A stretch of DNA of 60,620 bases, taken from the NCBI GenBank assembly GCA_028277105.1, contig JANQHO010000158.1, positions 1-60,620 on the forward strand, in the 5' to 3' direction. The stretch is from Owenweeksia sp. GTDB taxonomy: Bacteria; Bacteroidota; Bacteroidia; Flavobacteriales; Schleiferiaceae. The translations under genes and the position numbers were made by a program. Positions within the stretch are counted from its first letter, which is position 1. Every line of letters begins with the position of its first letter. Under the pieces are notes generated by a model that ran no database searches, had not been told where the DNA came from, and saw nothing but the letters and a program-made list of their open reading frames with translations. This document shows positions 53,504-54,684 of the stretch, piece after piece.

Positions 53504-53527
53504 TAAACTGGGAAAATAGATTGGTTA

Positions 53528-53557
53528 AAACCCGCTTATTATAAGCGGGTTTTTTAT
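53528..53557 (+). terminator. terminator of the rpoBC superoperon
   Basis: A 10-bp stem (AACCCGCTTA / TAAGCGGGTT with a 3-base loop) is followed by TTTTTATTAT, 25 bases after the DUF3467 stop codon. It is a classic intrinsic terminator. Confidence 0.92.
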
Positions 53558-53593
53558 TATCTGGCCTGATAAAAATCATGTTAAAAAAATATA

Positions 53594-54613
53594 ATGCTGT
53601 TTAGTTTTGGATCAATGGGCAGAATCCTAAATAGGAATAGGGTAAAAGGCAATCTTGCCAATAACCATTGGCAATTGTTTGGTATTAAGTTTACCCAGGC
53701 TCTCCGCTATAAATTTGATTACTACCATTATTGTTCCGGTCATTTTACTGAGAAGGCCTCTATTAGGGAGATCAATCTTGAGTTTTGTAGTATAGGGAAC
53801 GCCATATCCAAATTTTCAGTTTCAGGTCATACCAACTCCAAGTCTTATATGAGCACAGAAATATTAGATAGGGTTTTCAATGATCTTTTGTACGATAAAA
53901 GATTTTCAAGGGTTGCTACTATTAGTCTCTATGATGGGGGAGAGACCTTTTTACACTCTAAAAGGCTTGAACTTTTGAGAAGGGTAAAATTGCACAAAGC
54001 CCTATGGAATATAAGCGGTAAGAAATTTCCCAGGATAACGTTAATATCCAATGGAATACTGCTGCGGGAAAGTCAAGTAAAGGAGTTGCTTGAGATAAAT
54101 GTTATAAACGAAATAGGTTTTAACCTGGATAGTGATAGTATCAAAGCTTTTGAAGATTTGAAAATGAATGGCGGGGAAGGGAGATTTGTTGAAAGATTAA
54201 AAATGTTCATCAAACTGAAAGATATTATCTCACCGGAGGTAAAGATCATTGGTGTTGGTATAGCAGAAAAGCCCCATGCTATCAATTCCGGTTACGTGTC
54301 ACCTGAAATCGGGAGTGTTATCAATATACTGGATAGAATAGATTACAGGCTGCCAGGTGATACAAACATTGATAATATCGGAAAAGTCAATGAAACAGGT
54401 TGTAATCTTTTGTTGAAACAATTAACAATACTGCCTGACGGTAGTGTATCGGTATGCTGTAATGATTTGAATTCTAAAGGAATAGTTGGTAGTGTGCTGG
54501 GAAATAGCTTATATGATATCTATTTTTCAGGGGCGAGATTAAAATATGTTCGTAAATTGTACGAAGGAAAAAAGAAGAATTGGAGCTTTGCAGGAAATTG
54601 TATAAGCTATTAA
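53594..54613 (+). CDS. radical-SAM/SPASM-like protein lacking the cluster cysteines
   Basis: This is a 339-residue protein that follows the layout of radical SAM enzymes with a C-terminal SPASM-type domain, but the CxxxCxxC motif is gone. At the expected place it reads 'SIGNAISKFSVSGH', with G68, S72 and S75 at the three cysteine positions (codons GGG, TCC, TCA). The surrounding signature is kept: 'INLEF' strand before it, 'YMSTEILDRVFNDL' after it, the SAM-contact 'DGGET' at 114-118, 'LISNGILL' near 150, and SPASM-like 'TILPDGSVSVCCNDL' with C270, C288, C289 and C336. The usual last cysteine is missing. It stands alone between two terminators. It should not bind the catalytic 4Fe-4S cluster; it could be a decayed enzyme or a binding protein. 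Confidence 0.7.
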   Translation: MLFSFGSMGRILNRNRVKGNLANNHWQLFGIKFTQALRYKFDYYHYCSGHFTEKASIREINLEFCSIGNAISKFSVSGHTNSKSYMSTEILDRVFNDLLYDKRFSRVATISLYDGGETFLHSKRLELLRRVKLHKALWNISGKKFPRITLISNGILLRESQVKELLEINVINEIGFNLDSDSIKAFEDLKMNGGEGRFVERLKMFIKLKDIISPEVKIIGVGIAEKPHAINSGYVSPEIGSVINILDRIDYRLPGDTNIDNIGKVNETGCNLLLKQLTILPDGSVSVCCNDLNSKGIVGSVLGNSLYDIYFSGARLKYVRKLYEGKKKNWSFAGNCISY

Positions 54614-54656
54614 AGTAAACCAATCTGATAAACCTTAACCTGGTTTACTGCTAGTA

Positions 54657-54684
54657 AAAGAGCCGCGATTGCGGCTCTTTTTAG
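54657..54684. terminator. bidirectional terminator
   Basis: A perfect 10-bp stem (AAAGAGCCGC, GATT, GCGGCTCTTT) lies between the convergent SPASM-like gene and the BlaR1-like gene. It is followed by TT on the plus strand and T-rich sequence on the minus strand, so it can serve both. An 8-bp inverted repeat (GTAAACCA / TGGTTTAC, 54615-54648) lies just before it. Confidence 0.8.

Follow-up and report, generated by a model that had tools for sequence, protein, structure and literature searches.

The 60.6-kb stretch of DNA analysed here, called the window below, encodes a radical SAM-fold protein that is probably a pseudoenzyme, i.e. catalytically dead but still folded, and probably still regulated by oxygen limitation. 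The window belongs to a 174-contig draft genome (3.9 Mb) of a marine-type Bacteroidota, and the contigs of the nearest relatives are those of Owenweeksia/Cryomorphaceae/Schleiferiaceae-type Flavobacteriales. The case rests on the residues that the protein has lost, on the way in which the rest of it has changed, and on a predicted promoter shared with low-oxygen genes.

The gene and its former catalytic site

The gene and the sites discussed in this section are the following.

53527 to 53553, forward strand: intrinsic terminator of the rpoB-rpoC-DUF3467 transcript (terminator scan), isolating the gene from upstream transcription
53615 to 54613, forward strand: coding sequence of the cysteine-less radical SAM/Twitch protein, probably 332 aa (aligned orthologue starts and an open reading frame; the frame from 53594 begins 21 nt upstream)
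53795 to 53818, forward strand: former CxxxCxxC site, now G68-NAI-S72-KF-S75 (alignment with 21 homologues)
53933 to 53944, forward strand: SAM amino-group contact motif DGGE, NGGE in homologues (alignment)
54347 to 54356, forward strand: net 4-codon in-frame deletion removing the conserved RRLHDWGG loop (alignment; low pLDDT at residues 255-263)
54656 to 54684, no strand assigned: bidirectional terminator-like hairpin AAAAGAGCCGC-GATT-GCGGCTCTTTT between the gene and the convergent BlaR1/BlaI pair (sequence reading)

The frame from 53594 to 54613 is open over 339 codons with no stop. The original prediction took 53594 as its beginning, but the likely start codon is the ATG at 53615, since it aligns with the starts of the orthologues and fits the promoter position, and hence the first 7 residues of the 339-codon frame are probably untranslated. 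The gene stands alone between terminators as had been claimed, the upstream one being found by the terminator scan and the downstream hairpin being read from the sequence. It is a single-copy gene, the sole match in its own genome. Pfam finds both Radical_SAM (5e-8) and SPASM (3.6e-6) above the cut-off, the Radical_SAM match beginning only at profile position 25, past the cysteine motif. No NCBIfam family scored above the cut-off in the profile search.

All three cysteines of the CxxxCxxC motif, or of any variant of it, are absent, as predicted. Residues 68-75 read GNAISKFS, while all intact homologues found, including those of Verrucomicrobia, Desulfovibrio-type bacteria and Omnitrophota, have CNLRCxxC or a close variant in the alignment. 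The residues N69, F74, H79 and K83 around the motif are kept, showing that the alignment register is right; they also rule out a compensated frameshift, which we considered as the origin of the altered motif. There is no substitute cysteine near the motif except C65, which the near orthologues have too. Because all three ligands are gone, a SAM-ligating cluster would be impossible, and on the established mechanism we infer that radical SAM chemistry is excluded and that SAM would not be reductively cleaved.

The flanking signature had been described as kept, but L70, R71, A76, L77, D78 and P82 are lost as well, and so are the LDGG, NAKW and HDWGG loop motifs. The GGE motif that contacts SAM after strand 2 is indeed present at residues 114-117, though it reads DGGE instead of the NGGE of the homologues (N114D). 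The intact orthologues (L002-L007, e.g. on contigs CAKZRR010000032.1 and NZNV01000014.1) resemble the protein in length, domain layout and mostly in their class-II promoter. They differ in keeping CNLRCxFCALDHxKPK, NGGET, SLDGG, NAKW or NARW, HDWGG, and LCKxC or LCRxC. Taking a column as conserved when 90% or more of the 21 other sequences keep it, 30 of the 68 family-conserved columns are broken in this gene, versus 0-9% in the 21 homologues.

Orthologues, decay and constraint

Homologues occur in 21 of the 88 same-family genomes and in a few of the same order, the best identity being 44-46%. Among 25 relatives, 24 have CxxxCxxC and one (L043) has the motif deleted. A search for the G/S/S form in the genome collections found no second case, so this form is known from one genome, and the conservation of the form in other genomes that the original prediction had proposed to check did not materialize. 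The prediction would have been refuted by a copy that alone is mutated under relaxed selection; the copy is alone in being mutated, but the absence of stops, the severity of the substitutions and the promoter indicate constraint.

In genus g4 (L026, L027, L031, L032) the gene sits at the equivalent position, preceded by rpoC-DUF3467 and followed by BlaR1/BlaI and surE/lpxB. It is therefore an orthologue in its ancestral position, with no spare paralogue. A paralogue beside an intact copy was considered and is ruled out by the single genome match and by the ancestral synteny. Between the DUF3467 and the radical SAM genes, genus g4 (L027:10032-13919 and L031:3316-7137) has a small protein paired with a DUF4842 protein, once or twice in tandem; these pairs are absent from the window.

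The same comparisons dispose of the idea of a sequencing or assembly artefact, or of an unrelated radical SAM look-alike, to which we give next to no weight. The draft state of the genome, with its 174 contigs, could invite such an idea, but the substitutions are spread codon by codon in register, the gene order is that of genus g4, the 44-46% identity extends over the length, and the fold match reaches Z 20.6. This reading is already refuted by the alignment and the synteny.

A more serious alternative is that the gene is decaying and is still open by chance, i.e. that the enzyme became dispensable, that constraint was relaxed though it stayed mostly non-zero, and that no function is left. 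Conserved residues are lost throughout the barrel. Identity to the near orthologues hardly varies between conservation classes (0.49-0.64), which is the profile expected of relaxed selection, and GC at codon position 1 is lowered (0.39 versus 0.45-0.55 in most homologues). In near-invariant columns the first- and second-position change is 0.30 outside the motif versus 0.29 inside. Two orthologues, in genomes G030 and G083, are independently broken, and since the gene is in addition found in only 21 of the 88 family genomes, the enzyme appears to be dispensable.

These two broken orthologues provide a contrast. The one in G030 (L008 / L032:5500-7000, contig JAUICR010000014.1) has a frameshifting deletion of ~62 nt that covers exactly the CxxxCxxC stretch, which could be an assembly error as the assembly is of low coverage (contig coverage 0.97); downstream of the deletion 0 of 53 conserved residues are lost. 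The one in G083 (L023, L025) has a one-base frameshift just past CNLRCKFCALDH and is split between two contig ends at LTR, the pattern that an insertion element would leave. As read from their sequences, the two pseudogenes are the reverse of the window gene, with residues intact and frames broken.

The way in which the window gene has changed is not that of plain relaxation. Relative to the closest codons of the orthologues, codons 68-78 have at least 13 of their 33 nucleotides changed, so the loss of the motif is old, not recent. When neutral drift was simulated from the orthologue sequences, a 44% loss needed ~0.27 changes per site and brought ~9 stops, with a probability of ~1e-4 for no stop, an argument made somewhat weaker by the frame having been chosen for being open. 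Outside the motif, 48 of the 119 columns with a secure ancestral residue have changed, and these changes are far more conservative than neutral ones, with a mean BLOSUM62 score of +0.38 versus a neutral expectation of -0.79 (SD 0.23), i.e. 5 SD off; the mean of the motif changes is -1.27. The result stands even if as many as 24 of these changes, half of them, date from a previous phase under constraint (P 0.001 or less). Of the 75 hydrophobic columns 70 are kept, versus 61.9 (SD 3.2) under neutrality (P=0.007). Both indels relative to the near orthologues are in frame, and the promoter is intact. In a branch dN/dS run a neutral window branch was ~17 log units worse than an unbounded single omega, with dS saturated and the omega values uninterpretable. 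As the altered form is found in one genome, selection after the loss is tested indirectly, and the stop and substitution tests favour it. We consider decay under relaxed but non-zero selection a serious though less likely reading, and the claim that this full-length frame is no ordinary decaying pseudogene is supported.

Predicted promoter and the low-oxygen link

Two predicted promoter elements lie between the upstream terminator and the likely start codon.

53567 to 53578, forward strand: CRP/FNR-type box TGAT-AAAA-ATCA (TGAT-N4-ATCA), class II, centred at -41.5 from the inferred transcription start (same box and spacing at intact orthologues, hemN and the cco operon)
53602 to 53609, forward strand: Bacteroidota -7 box TAGTTTTG, 23 nt past the CRP/FNR-type box (TAnnTTTG 11-13 nt before the ATG in most near orthologues)

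Position -41.5 is the class-II position of CRP/FNR-type activators. The consensus for the Bacteroidota -7 box was taken from PMC9723704, and setting the box at -12 to -5 places the inferred transcription start at about 53614, giving a nearly leaderless mRNA. The same arrangement of box, spacing and TAnnTTTG precedes most of the near orthologues.

The pattern is rare. Within the window it occurs only at this gene (0.15 expected), and over the 3.9 Mb of the genome TGAYN4RTCA-TAnnTTTG with a spacing of 22-24 gives 6 sites (2 in the reversed control), 4 of them with 23 nt, including those of hemN and the cco operon. The window gene, with its predicted TGAYN4RTCA box 23 nt before TAnnTTTG, thus has the same site as hemN and cco. 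We suggest that about four to six such predicted sites define a small low-oxygen regulon in this genome. The layout is identical before hemN and the cbb3 oxidase region on one of the genome's own contigs (C23; L088:708-750 and L088:8279-8321). On another (C11; L092:1501-1543), the pattern with 23-nt spacing precedes two small putative lipoprotein genes (148 and 250 aa).

The intact gene adjoins the cco operon, a copper ATPase and a Crp/FNR regulator in genera g14 and g19. Apart from these cco/FNR genes in g14 and g19 the neighbourhoods differ, and no partner genes hinting at the substrate of the intact enzyme are conserved across genera. The shared promoter, and in part this neighbourhood, appear to tie the radical SAM/Twitch family to the low-oxygen regulon, with the window gene keeping the predicted control. 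Linking a widespread, uncharacterised family of Twitch radical SAM proteins with the hemN/cbb3 regulon in this way offers a clue to what the intact enzyme does.

The Twitch half, the fold and known systems

The C-terminal half of the protein holds a second cluster site.

54332 to 54610, forward strand: BtrN-type Twitch domain with C270 (54401-54403), C288 (54455-54457) and C336 (54599-54601) kept and C333 (54590-54592) changed to Ala (profile alignment to BtrN, 4m7s/4m7t)

The original prediction saw a SPASM-like tail here, and C270, C288 and C336 are indeed kept, but the domain is a Twitch and not a full SPASM, C333 is lost, and C289 matches no BtrN ligand. SPASM is a seven-cysteine motif binding two auxiliary clusters (PMC6231123). 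The only tail cysteines are C270, C288, C289 and C336, and the intact homologues are without the remainder too. C289 is no new ligand because it is common to all homologues and aligns with a Phe in BtrN. A Twitch domain of the BtrN type is a C-terminal half-SPASM whose four cysteines ligate a single auxiliary cluster; the intact near homologues have them all, and the window protein has three of the four (C333A).

The Twitch half is nevertheless the better kept one, with 16 of its 20 conserved columns kept versus 22 of 48 in the barrel (Fisher P=0.015; P=0.046 without the motif). An alternative hypothesis could be that C270, C288 and C336 still bind an auxiliary Fe-S cluster, with the fourth ligand open or non-cysteine, and that the protein has an electron-transfer, redox-sensing or cluster-binding role. 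The preferential keeping of this half and the promoter type shared with low-oxygen genes are in line with such a role, and MoaA and SkfB have Twitch sites with three cysteine ligands (PMC6231123). However, Ala replaces one of four ligands found in nearly every intact homologue. The earlier suggestion that the protein uses only an auxiliary cluster is thus weakened by the damaged site, even though three-cysteine Twitch sites exist, and we hold such a role to be improbable.

The structure check proposed with the original prediction bears out the radical SAM fold, the superfamily being defined in this sense by a complete or partial TIM-type barrel. The AlphaFold2 model of the window protein has pLDDT 81 and pTM 0.84 (pLDDT 87 for an intact orthologue), and is uncertain at the motif (residues 73-77) and at the deleted loop (255-263), although at this loop the intact model is uncertain as well. 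Among PDB structures the window model matches BtrN best (Z 20.6, 228 residues, 3.0 A), followed by ChlB, DesII and anSME, the four lying at Z 17-20, in agreement with the Radical_SAM match of Pfam. The model is weak evidence of folding since AlphaFold2, given aligned intact homologues, would produce this fold for nearly every member; we read it as showing kinship, not stability.

To return to the pseudoenzyme, the ancestral gene would have encoded a stand-alone enzyme of the radical SAM/Twitch type, under the same CRP/FNR-type activation as hemN and the cbb3 oxidase. This lineage has given up the catalytic centre, as the sequence shows by the loss of the three radical SAM ligands, much of the signature and one auxiliary ligand. 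Selection may have retained the folded protein, which is probably still produced when oxygen is short. Its role would be a non-radical one, most likely that of a binding or scaffolding pseudoenzyme whose Twitch half, the better kept of the two, would still recognise the former partner or substrate; our simplest guess is that it binds this partner or serves it as a scaffold. The full proposal, in which a cysteine-less radical SAM-fold protein induced at low oxygen by a CRP/FNR-type regulator is kept by selection for a new non-radical role, either binding the former substrate or partner or sensing, is a tentative one.

Among kinases and proteases, enzymes that persist after losing catalysis are well known. 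To our knowledge, such pseudoenzymes are hardly described among radical SAM proteins, in which a gene without its cluster cysteines is usually taken to be dead. Our literature search found no direct paper on a wholly cysteine-less Twitch radical SAM protein or pseudoenzyme. The window gene may provide a clean test case, since it is an orthologue present in one copy at its ancestral position, has an intact promoter of a regulated type, and can be compared with intact homologues as well as with two pseudogenes.

Other members of the superfamily serve for binding or have a non-canonical cluster motif, as do HemW, Campylobacter CgdH2 and Dph1-Dph2. HemW and CgdH2 are heme chaperones, HemW holding a [4Fe-4S] cluster and CgdH2 having CX3CX2CXC (PMC10320005), and Dph1 and Dph2 have non-canonical motifs, each with cysteine-bound clusters (PMC11048331). 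The window protein differs from all of them, as none is reported in these two papers to be without all cluster cysteines. The closest known system is BtrN, the butirosin 2-deoxy-scyllo-inosamine dehydrogenase (PDB 4m7s/4m7t), which is the best match by both profile and structure, shares the barrel and the Twitch domain, and has its ligand cysteines at positions equivalent to C270, C288, C333 (the lost one) and C336. Unlike the window protein, which is without the first motif and one of the four Twitch cysteines, BtrN possesses CxxxCxxC and the full set of four, and with ~16% identity in the structural alignment the two need not share a substrate.
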